Below are positions 880 through 25,931 of a DNA stretch of 25,931 nt, piece after piece. The notes under the pieces were generated by a model, which was not told the origin of the DNA, searched no databases, and worked only from the letters and a program-made list of their open reading frames with translations. Location of the stretch: positions 1-25,931 of IMG/VR virus record IMGVR_UViG_3300017666_000007. The stretch is one strand, 5' to 3'. Made by a program: the position numbers and the translations under genes. The stretch's first letter is position 1. Each line of letters opens with the position of its first letter. The DNA comes from a virus.

Positions 880-907
880 TTGACATACTGCGATGACTCT
901 CCACAAT
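880..907 (+). promoter_or_regulatory. Sigma70-like promoter for the EEP cassette
   Basis: A perfect -35 box, TTGACA (880-885), is followed after 16 bases by CACAAT (902-907), a 4/6 match to the -10 consensus. It lies in the 137-base gap after the HTH gene and points into the EEP nuclease gene, with about 45 bases of leader. The cassette therefore need not rely on late phage transcription. Confidence 0.5.
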
Positions 908-917
908 AGGCGAGAGT
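896..917. promoter_or_regulatory. Inverted repeat overlapping the -10 box (candidate operator)
   Basis: ACTCTC (896-901) and GAGAGT (912-917) form a 6-bp dyad with a 10-base centre that contains the CACAAT -10 box. A repressor dimer bound here would block the promoter. Nothing in the window says which protein binds; the HTH proteins at 554-820 and 2380-2673 are candidates. Confidence 0.35.
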
Positions 918-957
918 TCGGTAGATAAATTAGAAATGCTGCAAGCTACCTCGCATT

Positions 958-1809
958 GTGGATCCAAACCCTTCAAACTTGCGTTCCGAAAAATTGACGC
1001 GCGTACTTTTCTGGAATGTGAAAAAACGGGACCTTTCACCGATCGTCTGCGCACTTGTAAAAAGCACAAAAGCAGACGTAATCGTTCTTAACGAGCCACC
1101 GACCACAATCGGGACAACCTTAGACCTTCTCAAGCACGAGGTTTCGAATGATTTCCATGTGCCAGTATCAGCTACCGAGAACAGATTTCACTTATTCTGT
1201 CGACATCCAGGATTGGATCTGACCGAAATTCACGCCGGATTCCGAACAAGCTTTCGAAGAATGCGACTGGGTGAGGATAGATTGATATTGGCGTTAATCC
1301 ATGGGGTAGATGTTCGAAATTACGACTCCGATGCAAGACTGTCTTTCGCACATGAATTAGCAACCGAGATTAGTTTCGTGAATATACAGCATGCAACTAA
1401 TCGACTCGTTTTGCTAGGTGATTTCAACATGAACCCTTATGAACGGAGCATGAACCTTGCTGCAGGATTGAATGCAATGATGACCAGGGATTGCGTGAGA
1501 GCCGGAACAAGGAAACACTTGAAAAAAGAATACGAACTTTACTACAATCCGATGTGGAGTCTTTTCGGGGACAATACAGATGGTCCTCCTGGAACTGTAT
1601 ATGACGTAAGCAACCAAGGCCCGTACGGTTGGAGCATGTTTGACCAGGTGCTCTTCAATCACTCGATAGTTGATTTGTTCGAAAAGGTTCAAATCTTAGA
1701 TGAAGCAGGAATTTATCGGCTGACGGACGACCGCGGGCGTCCAGATAAAAAGAATGCTTCAGATCACCTTCCAATCCTCGTCTCACTTAAGGGAACCAAA
1801 CATGAGTAA
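958..1809 (+). CDS. Endonuclease/exonuclease/phosphatase (EEP) family protein
   Basis: This 283-aa protein carries the complete metal-dependent phosphodiesterase signature of the EEP superfamily (exonuclease III / DNase I / sphingomyelinase fold). The motifs are LFWNVKK with N20, VIVLNEPP with E46, LVLLGDFNMNP with D155 and N157, GWSMFDQVLF, and SDHLPI with D269-H270. It is probably a Mg-dependent nuclease or phosphodiesterase acting in the cytoplasm; there is no signal peptide. GTG at 958 is the only reasonable start: a stop in frame lies at 931 and LTRVLFWN begins at about residue 13. No good ribosome site is visible. Its last 8 bases overlap the next gene. The position between terminase and protease, with its own promoter, marks it as accessory cargo (moron). 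Substrate unknown: DNA, RNA, lipid and small-molecule phosphodiesters are all possible for this fold. Confidence 0.8.
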   Translation: MDPNPSNLRSEKLTRVLFWNVKKRDLSPIVCALVKSTKADVIVLNEPPTTIGTTLDLLKHEVSNDFHVPVSATENRFHLFCRHPGLDLTEIHAGFRTSFRRMRLGEDRLILALIHGVDVRNYDSDARLSFAHELATEISFVNIQHATNRLVLLGDFNMNPYERSMNLAAGLNAMMTRDCVRAGTRKHLKKEYELYYNPMWSLFGDNTDGPPGTVYDVSNQGPYGWSMFDQVLFNHSIVDLFEKVQILDEAGIYRLTDDRGRPDKKNASDHLPILVSLKGTKHE

Positions 1810-2335
1810 TTACTGGCCCGATATTGATTTAACCGATACAAGTTCGCCCCTGGAAATTCTTCGTCAGGCGCAAACTGATTGGGAGAGCGGCAGTGGAGGT
1901 TTGATGACACTGGTATTGCAGCAAGCAACATCGAAAACTGGCAATGACATGATTGTTGTTCACGCTCACCATATTCCGAGCAGCCGAACAGGTGCGTTAT
2001 TCTCTGTGGTGCATCGTCCAAACAACTTCTATCCTGTAACAATTGTTCCAACTGAAAACGATCTGCCTAATTTCTTAAAAAAGTCGTATTACGAGCCTGG
2101 CTACAATATGATGGCAGAATTTGCAAAGACGACCATGGGTAACGTTCCGGGAAGCACCGTTGAAAATGAGTGGGTCGCGGAGACTCCCGGCGAATTCCGA
2201 AGTCAACTCAGAAAAGCTTTTAAGCTTGGAACAGTCAAGAGCATTCTGTTAAACCTTAGTTCAACTAATGACTCGTCAAAAAATGCAAATGAGGTCAAAG
2301 TTGTCGGTAACCCAGCGCAATCTGACCCTGAGTGA
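1802..2335 (+). CDS. Unknown 177-aa protein partnered with the EEP enzyme
   Basis: I do not recognise the family. The start ATG at 1802 has the ribosome site AAGGGA and overlaps the end of the EEP gene by 8 bases, so the two are made from one message in a coupled way. The N-terminal half is a mix of short strands and helices (LMTLVLQQA, DMIVVHAHHIP, GALFSVVHRP). A helical part follows (LPNFLKKSYYEPGYNMMAEFA), and the C-terminal 25 residues are polar and probably disordered. There is no signal peptide or membrane segment. The context allows an inhibitor/immunity protein, an activator or a sensor for the EEP nuclease; none of these can be shown from sequence alone. Confidence 0.7.
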   Translation: MSNYWPDIDLTDTSSPLEILRQAQTDWESGSGGLMTLVLQQATSKTGNDMIVVHAHHIPSSRTGALFSVVHRPNNFYPVTIVPTENDLPNFLKKSYYEPGYNMMAEFAKTTMGNVPGSTVENEWVAETPGEFRSQLRKAFKLGTVKSILLNLSSTNDSSKNANEVKVVGNPAQSDPE

Positions 2336-2379
2336 CAATCAAAGGTGTTAGATAATTCGACCACATGAAATCCCTGTGT

Positions 2380-2673
2380 TTAATCTTGCAACTCACCCAA
2401 CCACTTTTCGATCACATCGATCGATTCTTTCGGTGGGTATGACGTTCCAGCGAGCCATCGCGAAACCGTTCCTCGGTTAACGCCACACAGCTCGGCAATG
2501 TAGGCTCCTGAGCGGTAGTTTGTTCCAGCCGCATAATTTCGATCAACGACTTCAAGCGCTTCGTTGGCCTTCTTGCGCAGCTTGTTCCAGCGAGGATCTG
2601 GTTCCCGACGTGGTTTACCTTTCGGCCAAGGGGCATCTTTGCCTACGCGTTCTGCTCGATTTGGATCTGTCAT
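2380..2673 (-). CDS. HTH DNA-binding protein (last gene of the reverse operon)
   Basis: This is a 97-aa protein with a basic N-terminal half (PWPKGKPRREPDPRWNKLRK) and a C-terminal helix-turn-helix, GAYIAELCGVNRGTVSRWL (about residues 57-75), ending with a helix ESIDVIEKWLGEL. The helix pair resembles XRE/Cro-type or transposase-type HTH domains. The ATG at 2673 is two bases after the nucleotidase stop (TGA-CT-ATG). A TTG six bases upstream would overlap that stop and is less likely. It is the fourth gene of the minus-strand operon and converges on the EEP cassette. It may regulate this region; the target is unknown. Confidence 0.68.
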   Translation of the reverse strand: MTDPNRAERVGKDAPWPKGKPRREPDPRWNKLRKKANEALEVVDRNYAAGTNYRSGAYIAELCGVNRGTVSRWLAGTSYPPKESIDVIEKWLGELQD

Positions 2674-2675
2674 AG

Positions 2676-3173
2676 TCAACGCATGCTATCATCGTTGCAG
2701 CATTGAAGCAACATATCGAGCAAACTCTCCCACTTTTCACGGGTGAACAGATAGGCCATTCCTCCAGCGAGCTCCCAGGCATCGACCACCTTTTGGCGAT
2801 CATCGATCAGGATCCCATCTTTCGATGCAAACCAGGCTTTAGAAGCGGTATTCAAGCAGAACGCCACAGGATATTCCTCAAATCCAACCGAGCTAAGGAA
2901 ATCAAGCTTTTGCTTGGCAATGTTGAGGTGCATTTTCCCGCCGCCAGTCGAGGTCATGAAGCTAAACTTCAGACCTGCTTTAATCAGCCCGTTAACCAGA
3001 GCAATCCCCTCAGGAATCGGCTTTAGGTTCGCGAAAAACCGATGAGCTGCGCAGTCTGAATTCCAAAACTCCTTTTGCCCAGCTTTGGTAAGTGACTCGA
3101 AATCTTTTCCGTAAAGCTCTAGGATTCCGTTCTCGAAATCCGCCACGAGCCCGTCCATATCGATGTAAATCAT
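2676..3173 (-). CDS. HAD-superfamily 5'-(deoxyribo)nucleotidase, NT5C type
   Basis: This 165-aa protein opens with MIYIDMDGLVADFENG, the DxD motif I of the HAD superfamily (nucleophile D5, acid/base D7). It ends with GILIDDRQKVVDAWELAGG, motif IV followed by the helix typical of cytosolic 5'(3')-deoxyribonucleotidases. The segment FSFMTSTGG supplies the motif II Ser/Thr. These enzymes remove phosphate from (d)NMPs, so a role in nucleotide pools during phage growth is likely. The ATG overlaps the stop of the DUF4942 gene (ATGA), so the two are translationally coupled. The length fits bacterial/phage NT5C members. The fold is secure, the exact substrate is not. Confidence 0.78.
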   Translation of the reverse strand: MIYIDMDGLVADFENGILELYGKDFESLTKAGQKEFWNSDCAAHRFFANLKPIPEGIALVNGLIKAGLKFSFMTSTGGGKMHLNIAKQKLDFLSSVGFEEYPVAFCLNTASKAWFASKDGILIDDRQKVVDAWELAGGMAYLFTREKWESLLDMLLQCCNDDSMR

Positions 3174-4006
3174 TGTTTTTCCCCCAATCGGTTTCGACCA
3201 CAGATCAGATTGAATCGGTCAAGTAAATCGATTCGCTTGAATTCCAGGTGCAAGTTTCCGTTCTTGAAGCACTTGAACTTGAAATACTCGGTTTCGCCAG
3301 CTCCATCGGAATTGTGAATCGCATCAACCAGCGGACCGTGAACTCCGCTGGCTATGCAACCTTGCCCATCAAGCAGGTGAAAGATGTTATCGATCGAGGT
3401 CAAGTGTCTTCGTCGATCCCAGTTGGTTTCCCATCTGTTCCAACTTCGGGAAATCATGTATCCCTTGATCACTTTCTTATCAAGTCGATATTGGCTTTTC
3501 TTGTTGGTTTTCAGCTTCTCCCACTGGGAATGCGACTTGAAAAAGTCGTATTCTTCACGAATTGCTTCTTCGAGAAACTCTTCTGCACTGGAGCAGTAAC
3601 CGGCAATGACTTCGTTGATACCTTCGGCGGTGATATCGGGAAGTTTATCGACGTCGCAAAGATTGTTGCTGTAGAGCACTGAATCGAGTTCCTTTTGTCT
3701 CGCAGAAGACATTACCTTTTGAACTCCAAGCCTTGCGATGAGGATCCGCCAAGCATTCTGTTTGAACGCTCGAGCGATATCCTCGGTTCCATTCGATCGG
3801 TAGTTCGAAGTTTGAATCTTCGCTTCGAATGCATTGGAACGAAACTTGTCCTCGGGCTGAAACGCTTCGTTTAAGTGCTCCAGCGCATTTCGCAAGAGGT
3901 TTTGAGATTCCGCGATCGCTTCCATAGATCGCTCGAACGCATCGGCCATTTGACTGACCGATGAGAATGGAATCATTTCAGAGTTAACGATAGATGCTTG
4001 GATCAT
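3170..4006 (-). CDS. DUF4942-domain phage protein
   Basis: This 278-aa protein resembles DUF4942, a domain found in phages, prophages and plasmids. In other phages it is often fused to a SAM-dependent methyltransferase, which is absent here. Recognisable parts are NAWRILIARLGVQKVMS, then FLEEAIREEYDFFKSH, then the central KVIKGYMI...LTSIDNIFHLLDGQG, and the C-terminal FKFKCFKNGNLHLEFKRIDL followed by FNLICGRN. The last block ('K.FkNGNvHl.F.r.DL...N') is the clearest family mark. The molecular function of DUF4942 is not established. The gene is coupled by ATGA overlaps at both ends. Confidence is good for the family, low for any role. Confidence 0.72.
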   Translation of the reverse strand: MIQASIVNSEMIPFSSVSQMADAFERSMEAIAESQNLLRNALEHLNEAFQPEDKFRSNAFEAKIQTSNYRSNGTEDIARAFKQNAWRILIARLGVQKVMSSARQKELDSVLYSNNLCDVDKLPDITAEGINEVIAGYCSSAEEFLEEAIREEYDFFKSHSQWEKLKTNKKSQYRLDKKVIKGYMISRSWNRWETNWDRRRHLTSIDNIFHLLDGQGCIASGVHGPLVDAIHNSDGAGETEYFKFKCFKNGNLHLEFKRIDLLDRFNLICGRNRLGEKQ

Positions 4007-4665: not shown

Positions 4666-5856
4666 ATGGGTGCGTTCAAGAAATCAATGCTGTCGCTCGG
4701 AACATACGAGAGCCCCGAAGGAACAATCGTGGTTACTCCTGATCGACTTATGCATTGGCAGCAAGCAGTAAAGAGGGTTCAGGATGCTGGGTACCAAATC
4801 CCAATGCGTTGGAACCACGCTGATCTAACTGACATAAAGAACCTACAACCGATCAAGCGATTGTCGACGCAGGAGTCATCCGAGAGAACCGCAGGTCATT
4901 TAGTTGATTTTCGTGTGTCCGAAGATGGTAGATCTGCAGAGATCATCGTTGAAACGTTAACCAAAACTGCAACAGAGGCTGTTGAATCGAATGCGGTTTT
5001 CATTTCACCGGTGCTTTTCGATGAGTGGGAGGACGGCCATGGCCAAACTTACTCCGACATTATTGGTTCCGTCGATCTGGTTGATCTTCCTGTTGATTAT
5101 TCGCAAAAACCATTTCAGCCAACCGTAATGGCGATGTCAACGAGTCGCAGGGCTCCATCGATTATTCGGATGGCAACCAAACCAAACAACGTGTACCGGC
5201 TTTCCACTGAGGCAAACATGGATCCAGAATCGCAAACAATCGACGAAGAAACGAATGCCGAATCCAATCCCAGCGAGGATCCAGCGATTCCCGAATCGTC
5301 GAGCATGCTTTCATCGGTGATCTCAGGACTGGCACAGTTGAAGATTGCATTGCCAGCGGACACGAATACCGAGAACTTTCTCGATCGATTGAACACCGCT
5401 TTGATGACTGCAGCCGCTCAGACAGCGGAAGAAGAGAATCCAAACCAAGTTGTGGATCCAGGAAATCCTGAACCTGTTTCCCCTGCAGTGGCAACCATGA
5501 GTACTCGCGTCAAGCAACTTGAGGATCGGATCCTCACTGAAGAAAGAGCCAAGGTCAAGAATCGCTTGGACAACCTGCTAACGACCGGCCGCATGAGCCC
5601 CGCAGAACACGCCGAGAAATCGACGGCTCTTGGAGTTCAACGAATGAGCCTGGGAACTGACGGAACAGTTAAGCAAGGCCGAATTGGTGATTTTATTGAG
5701 TCCCGAGAGGCGATTCCAGAGGGTGCCTTTTGGGATCCAAAGGAAAAGATCAAGCGGTTGAGTACTGCGACTCCCAAGAGCACTTGGACTAAAGGTGCGC
5801 CCGATGATGTCGAAGCGATGAAGCAACAGAAAAAACAAATGCTGCGCCGTGCGTAG
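4666..5856 (+). CDS. Prohead protease with C-terminal scaffold (Mu gpI-like)
   Basis: This is a 396-aa two-part protein. Residues 1 to about 150 look like a phage head-maturation protease: IPMRWNHADL supplies a His (H51) in the usual place, RTAGHLVDFRV follows, then AVFISPVLFDEW with S114 as candidate nucleophile, then DIIGSVDLVDLPVD. Residues ~185-396 are acidic and low complexity, then helical (RVKQLEDRILTEERAKVKN), ending in a basic tail, as in scaffold proteins. The fusion and the position just before decoration and capsid genes match the Mu I/Z and lambda C/Nu3 arrangement. The protease would cut scaffold and capsid proteins inside the prohead. The start ATG at 4666 has only a weak ribosome site. 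Catalytic residue assignment is by pattern only. Confidence 0.68.
   Translation: MGAFKKSMLSLGTYESPEGTIVVTPDRLMHWQQAVKRVQDAGYQIPMRWNHADLTDIKNLQPIKRLSTQESSERTAGHLVDFRVSEDGRSAEIIVETLTKTATEAVESNAVFISPVLFDEWEDGHGQTYSDIIGSVDLVDLPVDYSQKPFQPTVMAMSTSRRAPSIIRMATKPNNVYRLSTEANMDPESQTIDEETNAESNPSEDPAIPESSSMLSSVISGLAQLKIALPADTNTENFLDRLNTALMTAAAQTAEEENPNQVVDPGNPEPVSPAVATMSTRVKQLEDRILTEERAKVKNRLDNLLTTGRMSPAEHAEKSTALGVQRMSLGTDGTVKQGRIGDFIESREAIPEGAFWDPKEKIKRLSTATPKSTWTKGAPDDVEAMKQQKKQMLRRA
5218..5856 (+). CDS. Candidate nested scaffold protein (internal in-frame start)
   Basis: Inside the protease gene, ATG at 5218 is preceded by TGAGG (5208-5212) with a 5-base gap, a better ribosome site than that of the full-length gene. 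It lies exactly where the protease part ends and the acidic, coiled-coil part begins (MDPESQTIDEETNAES). A separate 212-aa scaffold made from the same frame is known for lambda Nu3 and Mu Z, which share their C-termini with the protease. The expression here is inferred. Confidence 0.45.
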   Translation: MDPESQTIDEETNAESNPSEDPAIPESSSMLSSVISGLAQLKIALPADTNTENFLDRLNTALMTAAAQTAEEENPNQVVDPGNPEPVSPAVATMSTRVKQLEDRILTEERAKVKNRLDNLLTTGRMSPAEHAEKSTALGVQRMSLGTDGTVKQGRIGDFIESREAIPEGAFWDPKEKIKRLSTATPKSTWTKGAPDDVEAMKQQKKQMLRRA

Positions 5857-6793: not shown

Positions 6794-7954
6794 ATGTACT
6801 TTCCACTGTTAGCTCCACAGGTCCTTACGAACGTCATCAGCCAACAAGCTGCTGTTTCTGAGTGGATTCTGAATCTATTTGGCGTCAACCACGGTGCCGA
6901 TGTCTCGGATCCGTTATTTGATTCAGAAACCGATGTTGCCAAAGGCGCCAACGTCCTCAACTTTGGGCATGGACGCAATGGAGCGTTCAGCGTGTTCGAC
7001 AACAGCCGAAGGGTTGCCAAGGGGCGTGCACCTGGAACGGCTGCCGCGCAATCGGGACTTCAAGACGTTGGAACGGTCCCGTTCACTTACCCTCGGATGT
7101 ACGATTCGATTAGGTTACTCGCTGAAACCTTTCACAATCTCGGTCTGATCAACGATCCTGCCCAACGGGACTTAATGGGTCGACGAATGATCGAGATGCA
7201 AACCCGAGTCAAGGCACAGGAGGCTGCGAACTGGCGGAAAGCAGCATTGATCGGTTCGTTACGATCCACACTGCGAGCACGTCGGAGCGGTGAAGATGTT
7301 CACTGGTCATTCACGACTGGTAATAGTGTTTCTCAGCAGATCCCGGCTGGAAATCTCGGTCAGTTGAACATGTTGGGAGCGGGTAACATTATTACAGCCT
7401 CGTGGGCCAATGCAGCTACGCGTATTAATGATCATCTCGATGGTATCAACACCGGGTTTCAACGTCTCTGCGGTGGAGCTCTTAAAGCATCGATCATTCC
7501 TGGTAGCGTTTGGTCGGCAATCATTGGAAACGATCAGATTCGAAATTTGGCGGGTATCGCAAATCCTCCTTTCGAAACTTTGAAGGTCGACGTCAACAGC
7601 AAAGTTGCTGTGACGATGAAGAACGTCAAGATTGCAAAGATTGTTAGCCAGCCCCAATGCACGTTCTACGTAACCGACGAAAACGTCATCCTCGATGATG
7701 GCGAACAGTCAATCGTTCCGACCGGAACCGGAATGTTTTTCGGTTTTGAACCAGACGACGGAACTGTCGCAGTCTATGAGGGATCCGAACCAGTTGCTGA
7801 ATACGATGGCGGTCCGGAAACGCTGCGAACTGGTTTTTCGTCCTGGTACGTGAAGAGGAGCAACCCGACGGCAACCGAGGTGTTCTTCTTGGATAACGCG
7901 ATGCCTGTGATTCACGTTCCTCGCGCTGTCGCTTTTGCAAACCTGATTTTCTAG
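6794..7954 (+). CDS. Major capsid protein
   Basis: This 386-aa protein directly follows the protease and decoration genes and is itself followed by a strong terminator, as is common for the most abundant virion protein. It starts with a helical arm (YFPLLAPQVLTNVISQQAAV), carries the long helix MGRRMIEMQTRVKAQEAANW (the spine-helix region of HK97-fold capsids), and has a C-terminal beta-rich part with FYVTDENVILDD and VFFLDNAMPVIHVPRA. I cannot name the exact capsid family. The ribosome site is a weak purine run (AAGAAAGAGA). The assignment rests on length, position and secondary-structure pattern. Confidence 0.72.
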   Translation: MYFPLLAPQVLTNVISQQAAVSEWILNLFGVNHGADVSDPLFDSETDVAKGANVLNFGHGRNGAFSVFDNSRRVAKGRAPGTAAAQSGLQDVGTVPFTYPRMYDSIRLLAETFHNLGLINDPAQRDLMGRRMIEMQTRVKAQEAANWRKAALIGSLRSTLRARRSGEDVHWSFTTGNSVSQQIPAGNLGQLNMLGAGNIITASWANAATRINDHLDGINTGFQRLCGGALKASIIPGSVWSAIIGNDQIRNLAGIANPPFETLKVDVNSKVAVTMKNVKIAKIVSQPQCTFYVTDENVILDDGEQSIVPTGTGMFFGFEPDDGTVAVYEGSEPVAEYDGGPETLRTGFSSWYVKRSNPTATEVFFLDNAMPVIHVPRAVAFANLIF

Positions 7955-14896: not shown

Positions 14897-17800
14897 ATGT
14901 TGCAAAAAATCAAATCTTTATTCACAAGACGGCCAACTTCGGACCAACCTACAACGCCGGTCACGAAGGGCTATAAGCCTATGGTGCGCACGTGGTTTCA
15001 ACAGCCACGAGATCTACCGCCATTTAGTTTCGATACGATCTATTCGATGCTCTTGGACCCGCAAGTGCGTCTCTGTCTTGCCATGCGACAGGCACCAATT
15101 CATAACGTGCAGCTCGCCTACCAAAAAGGATTCGATTCCAGCGGCAAACCAATCTGGATCAATGGAGTTAAAGCCAGAAATCCTGCTGTCGCCGCATGGG
15201 TACAAAGGCAAGTTCAAACTATCTGGACGAACTACCTACCCGAAATCTTAAAGGCACAGGTTTGGGGCTGGAGTGGCGGCGAAGTCACGGTTCGACTATC
15301 CGAACACAATCTACTTGAAATCGATCGATTGCTTCCGAGGCACGCTGCTGACGTTTTGCTCCTGAAAGACCATGGAGATCGATACGGAATTCGAGTAAAG
15401 CGGATAACGAATTGTGGCGAGGTCGATCTTCCATTTCCGTATTGCTGGTTTCACACCTTCAATCCCGATGCAGGCGAAGACTACGGAAATCCAGTACTCT
15501 TGGGAGCGTATTCGCCATGGGCTGATAAGTGGCTCGATGGAGCGGCGCTCGATACTCGTAGGCTTTACATGCATAAAGACGCCTATGGCGGGATGAAGAT
15601 CGGCTATCCCGAAGAGTCTGTATACGTCGATGGGCAAGAGAAGCCGGTCTCGGCTAGGGATCTCGCGCTACAAATCGCAGAACAGCGGGCAGCCGGTGGA
15701 ACCGTCACCTATCCCACAACCAGAGATGGAATGGGTAACGCCAAATGGGAAATCCAAGACGCGACGGTATCGAGTAACCCCGCCCACATCTTGCAGTTTC
15801 CTAAGGATCTCGATGATGAGATTCGAATCGGAATGGAAATTCCCGATGATGTAATCAGCTCCGATGGAGTTGGTGGCTGGGCCGGTAAACGCGTAACGCT
15901 AGCAGCGTTTTATTCAGGTTTGGATTCTTGGGTGACTCAAATCTTCAGGGATTTGAGACTCACTTTGGAGCCGCTCGTAATGCTGAACTGGGGCAAGGCT
16001 CTGGATTTTGATATTTGCTTCAAACCGCTTGAGCAAGTGGCCATGGAGCAACAATCGGGAGCGGGCGGTTTCCAGCCAGGTCAACAACAAGCACAGCAGC
16101 CAGCTGCACCTGGAAACCCAGCTCTTCAAATCCCTTCGCGATTGATGAGCACAGTACGCGTAGATGAAAAGGACATCGATCCGAATCTTTCGGCAGAAGC
16201 GATCGCAGAGATACTGCAAAGTATCTTTGGCGATGATGCGGAGAAGATGTTCGAAAAGGCCTACTCCGAACCCGTAAAGCGGATGGGTACCTGGAAAGCA
16301 ATCGATCACCCGCGAGGGCCAGACGGGCGATTCATCGAAAAGAACAGCCCTCAAGCGGTTTCTGCGGCTAAGGACAAGATCCAAAACGTCCTTCAGGGAG
16401 AGCGAACCGAAACGGCTTTGCGCGAGATCTCTTCACACCTTTCGATTCTTACTACCAAGCAACTGCGAGAGCTCCAGCGCGAGAACAACATTAAAGCGGG
16501 TGGAGCGAAACCTTCCCTTGTAGCGAAGATTGCAGAACGGTTGCATGGCAAACCGGTTGAATCCAAAAAACGAGACGATTCAACACCTAAGAATCCTGAC
16601 AACCAAGACGTCTACACTGTTCCAGTAGATAGCCTGAAGGTCGATCCAAAGCGATTCCAGTACAAAGTAAAAGGGGTCGACGATACGGGCGTTACTGCGG
16701 AACTGAAGGGCGTTGGTAAATGGAATCCCGAATTGGCGGGAGCACTTCTCGTTTGGCGAGATCCAGAAACCGGACAGGATTTCGTTGTTAATGGTCACCA
16801 CAGGCACGAACTAGCGACGCGGTTGAACGCTGGCCAAATCAACGTTCGTTACATCCAAGCCGAATCTGCACAGGAGGCACGCGCTCGGGGGGCGTTGGCA
16901 AACATCGCCGAGGGGCGAGGATCCGCGATCGATGCTGCAAAGTATCTGCGAGACTCTGGGAAGAACATCGATCACCTGAAGGAAGCGGGTATCTCGATGA
17001 CTGGCAAGGTTGCTGCGGATGCATCAATCTTGAAGGATTTGGCGGAAAAGCCGTTCCAGTTGGTCACCGAGGGGCGGCTGGACGAAGACAAAGCGATCGC
17101 GGTTGCACGTCATTTGAAGGATCCAGATCTTCAGCAAAAGCTATTCAAAAAGCTCGAGGATCGAGAATCGAACGATCAGCGCGAGTGGACGAATCGGGAA
17201 ATCGAAACGGCAGCTCGTAAGATGGCTTCTGCTGGATCGGTTACCCAAACAGGTTTCGATCTTTTCGGAGCTTTCGAAGAGGAACAATCGACGTTTGATC
17301 AAGAGGTTGAGCTTGAGGCTCACGTCTCTCGATTGTTGCAACAGGAGGCCAACGACTATCGAGCGGTTGCTAACAAGCGACGCGCCGAAAGGGTAACGGA
17401 TGCCGGGAACGTTTTAGCAGTTGATGAGAATGCAAAACGGGCGGACGCTGCGGAAAGTGCAGTGTCTGATTTTGACCGTCAGTCGAGAATTAAAGGATCC
17501 GTCAGTGAGGCGATTCAATCGCAAGCTGCGGCGCTCGCATCTGCAAAAACTAAGAAAGATCGGGATGCGATCAAAGAGCAAACCCTGGGAGCGGTTCGTG
17601 CTGCTCTTGGTGTCCAAAAGTCTGGCGATCGAAATCTGGAATCAGGTTTAGTCTGGCAGGGTGATAAATGGAGTCGAGATGAGCGAACCGGCGGTTTGGT
17701 TGAAAAAGCAACCATGCGCAACGCCCAACGCAATTGGCCAGAGCACCGAAATGCCTATGTCAAAAACTATGGAAGGCTCGGAGATGATGGAAAACTCGCA

Positions 17801-18535
17801 GGAGTCGTATTAAATACGGACGATTGGCGTTCGCAGTTCCCGCAATACAAAGGAACCAACGCACATGAGGTACATGAGGCAAGCGCGGAACTGAACAATC
17901 GGCTTTACAAAGAGGCCTTAAAGGAGACCAAGGGAAAGGGCAATGGTCGGATGTTGATCTTGGCTGGCGGAGGCGGATCTGGAAAAGGCACAGCGACGAA
18001 AAACCATTTCGATGTCAATGAATACCCGCTGGTTCTCGATCAGGCTTCAGCTAACTATCCAAAACTTGAAAAGAAACTCGATGAGGCGATCTCGGCTGGA
18101 TTCACTCCTCAACACGTTTTTATCGATCGAGGCGTCTCCGGTGCAACGGGTGGTGTGATTGGTAGAGCCATGAATGCACTGAAACGAGGAGAAATGCCAC
18201 GCACAGTTCCATTGTCGATCGCTATGGAAGCAAACATCGATTCAAGAAAAGCAACTTTGGAATTGTTGAAAAGAAGAAAGGATATTGACACATCGGTAAT
18301 CGATAATACAAGTGATAGAGGCGAGACACGACTGATCAAAGATAGAAATGAAGCGATCAAGTATCTTGAAGCTCGCATTGAAGAAGAAGACCGCAAATTA
18401 GGCGAATTTAAGGCCACAATGGAACTCGATTTGGCCAATAAGCTTAGATCTGGAGAGATTCCGGATGATGTAGCTATTGGGCTTATGGGGCAACAGTGGT
18501 TCGATAAAACAAAGGGCACAAGCGATGGAACTTAA
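14897..18535 (+). CDS. Portal protein fused to ParB-like and zeta-toxin-like domains
   Basis: This is one uninterrupted 1212-aa frame with ribosome site GAGGAAG six bases before ATG. Residues 1 to ~390 look like a DUF935/Mu gp29-type portal: PQVRLCLAMRQAPI, AQVWGWSGGEVTVRL, PYCWFHTFNPDAGEDYGNPV, then a helical stem. A Gln-rich linker (about 390-410) leads to a SAP-like stretch LTTKQLRELQRENNIKAGG. Residues ~573-690 form a ParB/Srx-type domain: VPVDSLKVDP, then GKWNPELAG, VVNGHHRHELA (about 631-640) and ARGALANIAEGRGSAIDAA. Helical linkers follow. Residues ~965-1212 form a zeta-toxin-like kinase with Walker A GGGGSGKGT (1024-1032, K1030) and candidate catalytic D1048 (LVLDQ). Normal portals are 400-550 aa. 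The fusion could deliver effectors with the virion; whether it is cut by the protease is unknown. Confidence 0.78.
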   Translation: MLQKIKSLFTRRPTSDQPTTPVTKGYKPMVRTWFQQPRDLPPFSFDTIYSMLLDPQVRLCLAMRQAPIHNVQLAYQKGFDSSGKPIWINGVKARNPAVAAWVQRQVQTIWTNYLPEILKAQVWGWSGGEVTVRLSEHNLLEIDRLLPRHAADVLLLKDHGDRYGIRVKRITNCGEVDLPFPYCWFHTFNPDAGEDYGNPVLLGAYSPWADKWLDGAALDTRRLYMHKDAYGGMKIGYPEESVYVDGQEKPVSARDLALQIAEQRAAGGTVTYPTTRDGMGNAKWEIQDATVSSNPAHILQFPKDLDDEIRIGMEIPDDVISSDGVGGWAGKRVTLAAFYSGLDSWVTQIFRDLRLTLEPLVMLNWGKALDFDICFKPLEQVAMEQQSGAGGFQPGQQQAQQPAAPGNPALQIPSRLMSTVRVDEKDIDPNLSAEAIAEILQSIFGDDAEKMFEKAYSEPVKRMGTWKAIDHPRGPDGRFIEKNSPQAVSAAKDKIQNVLQGERTETALREISSHLSILTTKQLRELQRENNIKAGGAKPSLVAKIAERLHGKPVESKKRDDSTPKNPDNQDVYTVPVDSLKVDPKRFQYKVKGVDDTGVTAELKGVGKWNPELAGALLVWRDPETGQDFVVNGHHRHELATRLNAGQINVRYIQAESAQEARARGALANIAEGRGSAIDAAKYLRDSGKNIDHLKEAGISMTGKVAADASILKDLAEKPFQLVTEGRLDEDKAIAVARHLKDPDLQQKLFKKLEDRESNDQREWTNREIETAARKMASAGSVTQTGFDLFGAFEEEQSTFDQEVELEAHVSRLLQQEANDYRAVANKRRAERVTDAGNVLAVDENAKRADAAESAVSDFDRQSRIKGSVSEAIQSQAAALASAKTKKDRDAIKEQTLGAVRAALGVQKSGDRNLESGLVWQGDKWSRDERTGGLVEKATMRNAQRNWPEHRNAYVKNYGRLGDDGKLAGVVLNTDDWRSQFPQYKGTNAHEVHEASAELNNRLYKEALKETKGKGNGRMLILAGGGGSGKGTATKNHFDVNEYPLVLDQASANYPKLEKKLDEAISAGFTPQHVFIDRGVSGATGGVIGRAMNALKRGEMPRTVPLSIAMEANIDSRKATLELLKRRKDIDTSVIDNTSDRGETRLIKDRNEAIKYLEARIEEEDRKLGEFKATMELDLANKLRSGEIPDDVAIGLMGQQWFDKTKGTSDGT

Positions 18536-23726: not shown

Positions 23727-23926
23727 CGAAGTATCTAAAATGGCAGTTTTCTACTAGTTTTGCACAGTGTAGAATGTCGAAAGACGTGAAAAACCCCCAG
23801 TTTTTGATGAGTAACCTCAGTTCCTAAAGCTGAGGTCGCAAGTTCGAACCTTGCCGGGGGTACTAGGTGTTCTGTAAATGTTTTGCCTAGGCGAAACTCT
23901 TTGTCCTTGCTGCTCACTACTGTACC
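23711..23926. other. Right junction region of the prophage (attR)
   Basis: These 216 bases have no supported gene. They hold one of the TTGATACCA repeats and part of the other, a small inverted repeat AAAAAC-CCCCA-GTTTTT (23789-23805), a 7-bp dyad ACCTCAG-N9-CTGAGGT (23814-23836) and the tRNA 3' half. The 7-bp arms around a 9-base centre look like the core site of a tyrosine recombinase, with the central bases in the anticodon loop. Phage genes end on the left, and unrelated genes begin on the right. Confidence 0.5.
23821..23862 (+). tRNA. 3' half of a tRNA-Arg(CCT), attachment-site remnant
   Basis: Reading back from the T-arm (stem GCAAG/CTTGC, loop TTCGAAC, 23838-23854), the preceding AGGTC is a standard variable loop. 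AGCTG (23828-23832) is then the 3' anticodon stem, and TTCCTAA (23821-23827) is a 7-base anticodon loop with T33 and anticodon CCT. The acceptor 3' strand is CGGGGGT, then A; no CCA is encoded. The bases before 23821 do not supply a matching anticodon 5' stem or D-arm, so this is only a half gene. It is what integration into an anticodon loop leaves at the distal junction. Confidence 0.6.
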
Positions 23927-24139
23927 TTGTACCAGTCCGACATCAATCGATTGCTCGCAGCGAGTCTTGGCGCTAATGCCAGCTTTCCCGCAGAACCTGG
24001 ACTAGACTTACAAGCCCAACTGGCTGCTATAGTGAAGGCGTCGTATTCATCCCTGCCGGTTAAACTGGCATATTGGCACCATTTCGCTTCAAGCATCGTT
24101 GAATCGCTGCTTAAACTCGAGCTCGTGCGGTATGAGTAA
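23927..24139 (+). CDS. 70-aa unknown protein, possibly truncated
   Basis: A TTG start at 23927 gives 70 aa; the frame is open back to 23891 without an ATG, so it may be the 3' end of a gene cut by the prophage. The sequence is helical and Leu/Ala-rich (INRLLAASLGANASFP, QAQLAAIVKASYSSL, FASSIVESLLKLE). The last 8 bases (ATGAGTAA) overlap the start of the DUF4062 gene, which argues that it is or was part of that operon. I do not recognise the family. Confidence 0.4.
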   Translation: MYQSDINRLLAASLGANASFPAEPGLDLQAQLAAIVKASYSSLPVKLAYWHHFASSIVESLLKLELVRYE

Positions 24140-24748
24140 GAAACAAAATAAGCCCATCACAATTATGGTCTCGTCGACCGTATACGGTAGCGAAGATGTT
24201 CTCGATCGTGTTTACGACTTGCTCACATCTTTCGGCTATGAAGTGTGGATGTCTCACAAAGGAACTCTGCCAGTGTTCTCTAAACAGTCCGCATTTGAGA
24301 ATTGTCTGGAAGGAGTTCGCCGGGCACTCGTTATGGCACTGGGATTAAAAAACAGGATCCAGATTCGCTATCCATCGTTCACCAAGAGTTGCGACTTGCT
24401 ATTGAACTCAAGAAAGCTAGATGGCTTCTTGCGCATGAGAATATTCTGACGGCACGAACCCTCTTCTCTAAACTAGGGTATGTGGGAGTCGAAGGACGAA
24501 AGTCCCTCACTTTAAAACCCTCCGACGTGCTGGAAGATAAACGGCTTATCGACATGTATGAGGAGGCTACTTTTGACCGATTGCCGCTAGATGAAAGAAA
24601 GGGTAATTGGGTTCAAAAGTTTCATGACTATCAAGACTCAGGTCGCTACATTATCTTTCAATTCCGTCGGTATCAGGAAATAGAAGCTTATATTCGCGAG
24701 GGATTCGATGCGGTACCTCCGTTCTCGGAATTAGGAGGTTCGTCATGA
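24132..24748 (+). pseudogene. DUF4062-domain gene broken by a frameshift
   Basis: The first 65 codons from ATG 24132 give a clear DUF4062 start: ITIMVSSTVYGSEDVLDRV, then FGYEVWMSHKGTLPVFSKQS and FENCLEGVRRA. The family normally continues with a 'DlFlGii...YG.G' strand. Here that strand is missing and the remaining GTRYGTGIKKQDPDSLSIVH continues in another frame, up to the stop at 24748. The break lies at about 24319-24332 and fits a small deletion of a length equal to 1 modulo 3. The C-terminal part (AIELKKARWLLAHENIL, FHDYQDSGRYIIFQFRRYQE) is otherwise intact. DUF4062 is a Rossmann-like domain linked by others to TIR-like conflict proteins. Either the gene is inactive or the assembly lacks bases here. 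Confidence 0.7.
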
Positions 24749-25931
24749 AGGCAAGCGACATTTGCGAACAGTTGAGTTTGGGGGATGCTCTTCAGGTTGA
24801 GTTTAAATCCAAGCTAGTTCCCTTTGATAGTATTGGCCGCGTGATTAGCGGTCTTCTCAATACTTCCGGTGGGTTTGTGATCTGTGGCATTGGTTCCGAG
24901 AGCGAAATCTTGGGAGTCAATGTTAAAATGGAGCAATTGGCTGAGTTCGAGAGTCGTCTTCATGCGAGCATCTCTCCGAAAACAATGATCTCTGTCCAGC
25001 CACAGACCTTGCAGGGGAAACAGCTTGTTGTCATCGAAGTGCCGAAGGGGCATGATGTGCCCTACTCCTTTAAGAACGTGATTTATCTTCGAGACGGAAA
25101 TCAAACCAAGCCAGCCGACGGTGCTACGATTCGGCAATTGGTTTTAAATGCAGAGATCGCTCCAGAGCGATGGGAGCGTCGCCTCTCGTTAGCCAATATT
25201 GAGACAGATGTTGCTTCTGATGCGGTCATGGCTACTGTTCGTGATGCCCAGCGAGTTCAACGAGCCTTCTTCTCCGATCCGACAGATGTGGTTCGCACTT
25301 TGGAGGATCTGTCCGCCGCCAAATACGGGCGACTTACTAATGGTGGTGATGTTCTTTTCGCTCGTAACCCTGCCGAGCGTCTGCCTCAAATTCGAATTCG
25401 AGCGATTCGCTACAACTCTGACAAAGCAGGTGACAAGTTTAGCGACATGAAGTCCTTTGAAGGGCCGCTAAGCAGTATCTTCGAGGAGGCGTATAGCTTT
25501 ATTGTTCGTAACATTCCCAGTATCTCTAGGTTTCTAAGGGGGGATCCGAAACGACATGACTCGCCACTTTATCCTGAGGAAGCTGTTCGGGAAGCACTAA
25601 TCAATGCGTTAGCTCATCGCGACTACAGTGCATCATCGGGTGGGGTAAGCATTCACGTGTTCCCTCGTCGATTGGAGATTTGGAACTCAGGCCCATTACC
25701 CGAGGGAGTCACCGAGGCCAATCTCCTCAAAGGGCATATCTCGGTACTTCGCAATCCAGACATCGCACATGTTCTCTATCTACAAGGTCTCATGGAAAAG
25801 GCAGGGCGGGGCAGCGTTCTAATGGTAAAGCAATGCCAGGATGCTGGGCTACCAGCGCCGGCGTGGAAATCTGATCCCAAGCTCGGCGTTACCGTTGTTT
25901 TCCAGGCCCCCGAAGTCACCCCCGAAGTCAC
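24745..25931 (+). CDS. AlbA_2/Schlafen-type ATP-binding protein (RecG-like, 3' end outside window)
   Basis: ATG 24745 overlaps the DUF4062 stop (ATGA). The frame is open to the end of the window, 395 codons. The N-terminal 120 residues match AlbA_2 (Schlafen/SLFN-like): LQVEFKSKLVPFD with E19, K21, then LLNTSGGFVICGIG and VPYSFKNVIYLRDG. Residues ~270-385 match the RecG-associated HATPase domain: EEAVREALINALAHRDYS (N box), LEIWNSGPLPEGV (G1 box) and LMEKAGRGSVLMV (G2 box). The frame then enters a PEVTPEVT repeat, encoded by 12-base units from 25909, the usual linker before a C-terminal winged helix. Such proteins are probably DNA-binding ATP-dependent regulators; several occur in defence islands. 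It is chromosomal or island DNA, not phage late region. Confidence 0.8.
   Translation, partial: MKASDICEQLSLGDALQVEFKSKLVPFDSIGRVISGLLNTSGGFVICGIGSESEILGVNVKMEQLAEFESRLHASISPKTMISVQPQTLQGKQLVVIEVPKGHDVPYSFKNVIYLRDGNQTKPADGATIRQLVLNAEIAPERWERRLSLANIETDVASDAVMATVRDAQRVQRAFFSDPTDVVRTLEDLSAAKYGRLTNGGDVLFARNPAERLPQIRIRAIRYNSDKAGDKFSDMKSFEGPLSSIFEEAYSFIVRNIPSISRFLRGDPKRHDSPLYPEEAVREALINALAHRDYSASSGGVSIHVFPRRLEIWNSGPLPEGVTEANLLKGHISVLRNPDIAHVLYLQGLMEKAGRGSVLMVKQCQDAGLPAPAWKSDPKLGVTVVFQAPEVTPEV

Follow-up and report, generated by a model that had tools for sequence, protein, structure and literature searches.

Enzymes of the EEP superfamily (PF03372 Exo_endo_phos / PF19580 Exo_endo_phos_3; TDP2, DNase I, nocturnin and phrog_24714) have in common a DNase-I-like fold and the catalytic residues N, E, H, DxN and DH, all of which recur in the enzyme described here. 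Its subfamily is set apart from the rest of the superfamily by invariant W-N, NPxW and DQ motifs and by a partner gene that always follows the enzyme gene, whereas generic EEPs come without such a partner. Type II toxin-antitoxin systems resemble this EEP-partner pair in being overlapping two-gene units, mobile, patchy in their distribution and co-inherited with a protein partner. Unlike in most type II operons, however, the enzyme gene of the pair comes first and the partner gene second, and the enzyme is large (about 300 aa), with a neutralisation by the partner that we only infer. Abi_2 (PF07751) systems are a third point of comparison, since on three Acinetobacter plasmids the pair comes immediately after a gene of the Abi family, but neither pair protein matches Abi_2 and the pair mostly occurs without it.

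PADLOC-DB 2.0.0 returned no match for the EEP or the partner of the window (the whole 25,931-nucleotide stretch of viral DNA analysed, IMG/VR record IMGVR_UViG_3300017666_000007) and none of significance for their relatives. A search of the literature, at the level of accessible main texts, found no description of the pair and no report of the EEP fold as a toxin-antitoxin toxin; an EEP system is likewise absent from the main texts of a functional-selection paper (PMC9519451) and of the DefensePredictor paper (PMC13092281). We propose, with moderate confidence, that the pair is a mobile two-gene defence or toxin-antitoxin unit whose partner restrains the EEP nuclease.

The pair occupies a variable site of the prophage

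The features of the window on which the analysis bears are the following.

3-554: terminase-related gene (phrog_38 match)
816-2378, no strand: extent of the cassette, from breaks in blastn collinearity with L118 and from GC content
880-907, plus strand: promoter-like pair TTGACA-N16-CACAAT ahead of the EEP gene, within chance expectation
896-917, no strand: putative operator-like dyad ACTCTC-N10-GAGAGT, overlapping the -10-like hexamer
958-1809, plus strand: EEP-fold enzyme gene (PF03372, 9e-8; phrog_24714, 5e-10; alignments, AF2 and Foldseek)
1802-2335, plus strand: partner gene, 177 aa (orthologues, profile bridge and AF2)
4666-5856: gene called protease

Two phages sharing the window gene at 6794-7954, the presumed major capsid protein gene, were found for comparison: L118 (88% identical) and L119 (70% identical). 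The window and L118 are collinear, with 91% identity at 6-815 and 87% at 2379-3173 (blastn), and the 1563 bp in between (816-2378), which hold exactly the EEP-partner pair, are missing from this near relative, where 353 bp of unrelated DNA take their place. L119 has a different gene at the same site, and the GC content of the cassette segment is 44.6% as against 51.5% and 49.9% in its flanks. Because the pair is absent from L118 between collinear flanks, these data are direct evidence that the site is a moron site and that the pair is swappable; they demonstrate the existence and the mobility of a two-gene module. The original prediction, which had placed a moron between terminase and protease, is thereby upheld on both counts, its location resting on the phrog_38 match and on the collinearity with L118. 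When the L118 replacement is read by eye, its opposite strand seems to carry a small HTH-like gene. A second cargo gene, encoding a DUF4942 protein (3170-4006, minus strand; PF13708, 1e-31), lies in the same variable region as the pair, and window positions 3174-4001 are likewise missing in L118.

The signals that had been taken to give the cassette its own promoter fared less well. The TTGACA box is present, but this hexamer occurs 12 times in the window where 16 are expected. Promoter-like pairs between 700 and 2700 number 2 against an expected 2.1; that at 880-907 reaches a score of 10/12, and its -10 is weak. Similarly, the predicted operator-like dyad exists (896-917), but 6-bp inverted repeats are common around the cassette and this is one of several; a single terminator-like site (2408-2424) is within chance. 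The argument from an own promoter thus stands at chance level, and promoter and operator were dropped as evidence for the module. An own promoter for the pair is plausible.

A distinct subfamily of EEP enzymes

The EEP gene lies in a stop-free run of 291 codons, as compared with at most 171 in shuffles of the region. Its product is 283 aa long from GTG 958 and 271 aa from TTG 994; the latter is probably the true start, because a TTG stands at the equivalent place in L061, L063 and L064 and because the first ~10 residues of the longer version are modelled with low confidence. The complete active site that had been claimed for this protein is borne out, all the residues named being kept across 39 homologues (N20, E46, D155, N157 and H270 invariant, D269 at least 90% conserved), and the full catalytic set reads N20, E46, H115, D155, N157, D269 and H270. 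The invariant W-N, NPxW, DQ and DH motifs that mark the subfamily include W19-N20, N197-P198-x-W200 and D229-Q230 in the window protein.

The AlphaFold model (pLDDT 94, pTM 0.91) confirms the EEP fold in Foldseek searches, where TDP2 is the best PDB match (2.5e-12), with DNase I (1.6e-10), nocturnin and ANGEL2 among the other matches; the best PDB match of the sequence profile is nocturnin (E=4e-7). The enzyme is thus predicted from its sequence to be a metal-dependent phosphodiesterase with an intact active site. Its substrate may be protein-capped 5' DNA ends, as suggested by TDP2, the closest fold, or NADP-like nucleotides, as suggested by nocturnin.

The partner protein

The partner gene overlaps the stop of the EEP gene by 8 nt (ATGAGTAA). 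It had been described as an overlapping 177-aa protein of unknown family, and so it proved: the open reading frame is present at 1802-2335, and its product has no sequence match in Pfam, NCBIfam, PADLOC, PHROGs or PDB. The AF2 model (pLDDT 81) has a core made of a helix (16-30), four strands (35-43, 49-57, 62-71 and 79-83) and two further helices (129-140 and 143-153), with a YPV motif at 77-79. It gave no significant Foldseek match in PDB or BFVD, and no DNA-binding fold was matched in profile and fold searches. The protein is acidic (pI 5.4), as are most of its relatives, the pI being below 6 in 32 of 39 partners.

When the window partner alone was used to look for close relatives, none turned up among genomes, viruses, phages and plasmids, and relatives were reached instead by tblastn with the EEP. 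Partner orthologues in L061-L064 are 40-51% identical to it. Profile alignment with hhalign joins the window-type partners to those of a middle group (A7-A8; 96%, E=3.6e-9) and the middle group to the gammaproteobacterial partners (A8-A5; 97%, E=2e-10). The window-type and gammaproteobacterial profiles align only weakly with each other (39%), and the single window partner does not match the latter significantly, so that homology is shown by way of the bridge group; on the strength of this profile bridge, all partners form one superfamily. The groups share a (Y/F)P(V/C) strand, after which comes a helical segment at the C-terminus. Two phage protein families of unknown function, phrog_10179 and phrog_24185, are matched directly by the gammaproteobacterial partners and belong to the same superfamily, the window type through the bridge, although the window partner itself has no PHROG match and carries an insertion of roughly 45 aa after the YPV motif. 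Some partners (L028 2084-2965, L032 3736-4641, L039 6401-7462 and L051 2585-3898) have long histone-H1-like KPAAAKPAA tails, which suggests nucleic-acid binding in one branch of the superfamily.

Pairing and co-inheritance

A profile built from seven EEPs retrieved 48 viral loci, of which ~40 are distinct, the L014 partner recurring in L015-L021 and L024. A homologous partner lies directly downstream of the EEP gene in all 48 viral loci and in 20 chromosomal loci, the spacing in loci with two intact genes being -17 to +11 nt; in the reverse direction, an EEP gene stands upstream of all eight partner matches in Pseudomonas. Generic EEPs devoid of the W-N...LSP signature (mostly flavobacterial), which served as the outgroup, have no partner beside them. 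As far as gene content can tell, these counts show the pairing to be obligate and bear out the dedicated partner that had been predicted; the subfamily was never found alone, and within late operons the position of the pair varies. From their overlap, the two genes are probably co-transcribed.

The trees of EEP and partner are concordant (39 pairs, Mantel r=0.78, 0/2000 permutations), and they are so in the large clade taken by itself (r=0.57, 0/2000 permutations). This is to be expected if the two proteins move as a unit and, probably, also function as one. The overall correlation is at most consistent with binding of the EEP by its partner. Among decaying copies, the EEP is broken and the partner intact in seven loci and the reverse is seen in one, an asymmetry that is not significant given gene length (binomial about 0.2); some of the breaks may be sequencing errors. 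This 7:1 ratio fits a restrained enzyme, as does the acidity of the partners, but it was dropped as proof, the cases being too few.

The same observations could be read differently, the EEP and its partner making up one active complex in which the partner activates, specifies or senses and so guides the enzyme to incoming foreign nucleic acid, in a restriction-like manner and with no antitoxin. The partner is as obligate as a subunit would be, its gene comes after that of the nuclease, the two trees agree, and the KPAAAK tails of the L028, L032, L039 and L051 partners are expected to bind DNA. However, neither a recognition nor a modification domain can be seen, the partners are mostly small and acidic, and no match to the partner fold indicates nucleic-acid binding; we consider such a complex unlikely.

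Distribution across hosts and mobile elements

The genome scan yielded four window-type pairs, in Leptolyngbya, Cyanothece, a Planctomycetales bacterium and a Chloroflexota MAG, whose EEPs are 62%, 57%, 54% and 52% identical to that of the window, respectively. It also yielded middle-group pairs in Bacteroidota, Methylovulum, Lachnospiraceae and Zavarzinella and ten further pairs of the gammaproteobacterial type. The distribution is patchy. Eight partner genes were found in 7 of 249 Pseudomonas genomes; the pair occurs in one of 369 genomes of Gammaproteobacteria at large and the window type in one of 392 of Planctomycetota, and in both cases the genome concerned was the one on which the search was centred. 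Gammaproteobacteria gave one further, weak partner match (L117), which has no EEP gene adjoining. In the Methylovulum MAG (L067 7995-9218), the pair appears by eye to sit between carA-like and carB-like genes; close behind it on the downstream side are a short gene and one that resembles ParE/RelE.

On viral contigs the pair is found next to integrase, baseplate, head or replication genes, in no fixed position. In Acinetobacter prophages it adjoins the integrase, in one record beside the tmRNA and with an FRG gene downstream, and it is present on a filamentous Vibrio phage and on a conjugative Photobacterium plasmid. A virion or packaging role was rejected on these grounds, since the neighbours are variously integrase, baseplate and head genes and L118 does without the pair.

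Plasmids of 3.1-3.5 kb from K. pneumoniae, E. coli and Edwardsiella, including ColE1-type plasmids of 3 kb, consist of replication genes, the pair and little else; a search of E. coli complete genomes for close copies of the pair on pEC904 found none. A bacteriocin was considered and rejected, no receptor or translocation domain being seen and no lysis gene being annotated beside the pairs examined. That the pair is almost the sole cargo of these plasmids, in an overlapping two-gene format typical of addiction modules, would fit a unit that maintains plasmids and prophages and has no role against phages. We regard this as improbable, as the pair also resides on chromosomes with no evident element nearby, for instance between the carA-like and carB-like genes of L067, and behind Abi_2 or CBASS genes.

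Defence genes beside the pair

Among these neighbours are the Abi_2 family genes of the three Acinetobacter plasmids, on one of which a type I R-M system follows the Abi_2-EEP-partner set. Two such sets (L121 3234-5536 and L123 4847-7245) are 83% identical in the EEP, 74% in the partner and 27% in Abi_2, which implies either that the pair has acquired different Abi neighbours on separate occasions or that Abi genes diverge much faster; the Abi component of these operons seems, by comparison of the sequences, to be exchangeable. On one viral contig (L037 3423-6797), a CBASS cyclase and a likely 2TM effector lie directly upstream of the pair. Abi_2 or CBASS genes adjoin some pairs, but most chromosomal window-type copies lie outside evident defence islands, the neighbours having been counted beside the pairs alone.

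The L037 locus also bears on a possible counter-defence function, whereby the EEP would hydrolyse a host immune signal (a cyclic oligonucleotide, a 2'-5' oligonucleotide or an NADP-like molecule) and so shield the phage or plasmid. The frequent carriage of the pair by mobile elements would suit such a function, as would the resemblance to nocturnin, an NADP(H) 2'-phosphatase that is the best PDB profile match and a fold match as well, together with ANGEL2. A hydrolase of this type, however, would need no obligate, co-inherited partner, the closest window-type copies are chromosomal, and an anti-CBASS role would be self-defeating for the copy that adjoins a CBASS cyclase on the same element; counter-defence is, in our view, improbable.

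A possible mode of action

Obligate pairing, co-inheritance, carriage by mini-plasmids and Abi_2 or CBASS neighbours point indirectly to an anti-phage or toxin-antitoxin function. If the pair is indeed a defence or toxin-antitoxin unit, the prophage would carry the cassette as a moron conflict module, and the small acidic partner, most likely an inhibitor, would keep the EEP inactive in the uninfected lysogen. Another phage or element perturbing the cell would then release the EEP, and the freed enzyme would damage nucleic acid or nucleotides, with the result that the infection is aborted and the lysogen protected. The steps of this scheme, from inhibition by the partner through trigger and substrate to the effect on the infecting phage, are what we infer. 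More tentatively, and with less than even confidence, we suggest that the pair represents an undescribed anti-phage family spread across several bacterial phyla and several classes of viruses and plasmids, made up of an EEP toxin and a small acidic protein of new fold that would be inhibitor and infection sensor at once. Should a defence or toxin-antitoxin function be confirmed, a well-known enzyme fold would join the controlled bacterial toxins and two phage protein families of unknown function would gain a testable role. The module lends itself to such work, being compact (about 1.4 kb), available in minimal natural versions on 3 kb plasmids and clear in its catalytic residues.

Other loci in the window

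The 1212-aa product of the portal open reading frame (14897-18535) begins with a Mu portal domain, shows by eye a ParB-like stretch in mid-protein and contains, close to the C-terminus, the P-loop of a zeta-toxin-like kinase (PF06414, 5e-5), a combination that, going by these matches, would be an unusual fusion for a portal protein. The minus-strand open reading frame at 23735-23917 encodes PPARFELATSALGTEVT, a peptide that frequently arises where the 3' end of a tRNA is translated in frame. ARAGORN found no tRNA there, and the segment is a possible attachment-site remnant. At the end of the window (24099-25931), a DUF4062 gene with an apparent frameshift near 24300 precedes an AlbA_2/HATPase_c_4 gene that runs off the window end and matches the PADLOC pAgo and SIR2-argonaute models; the phage may already have ended here, and this region may be host DNA or another conflict locus.
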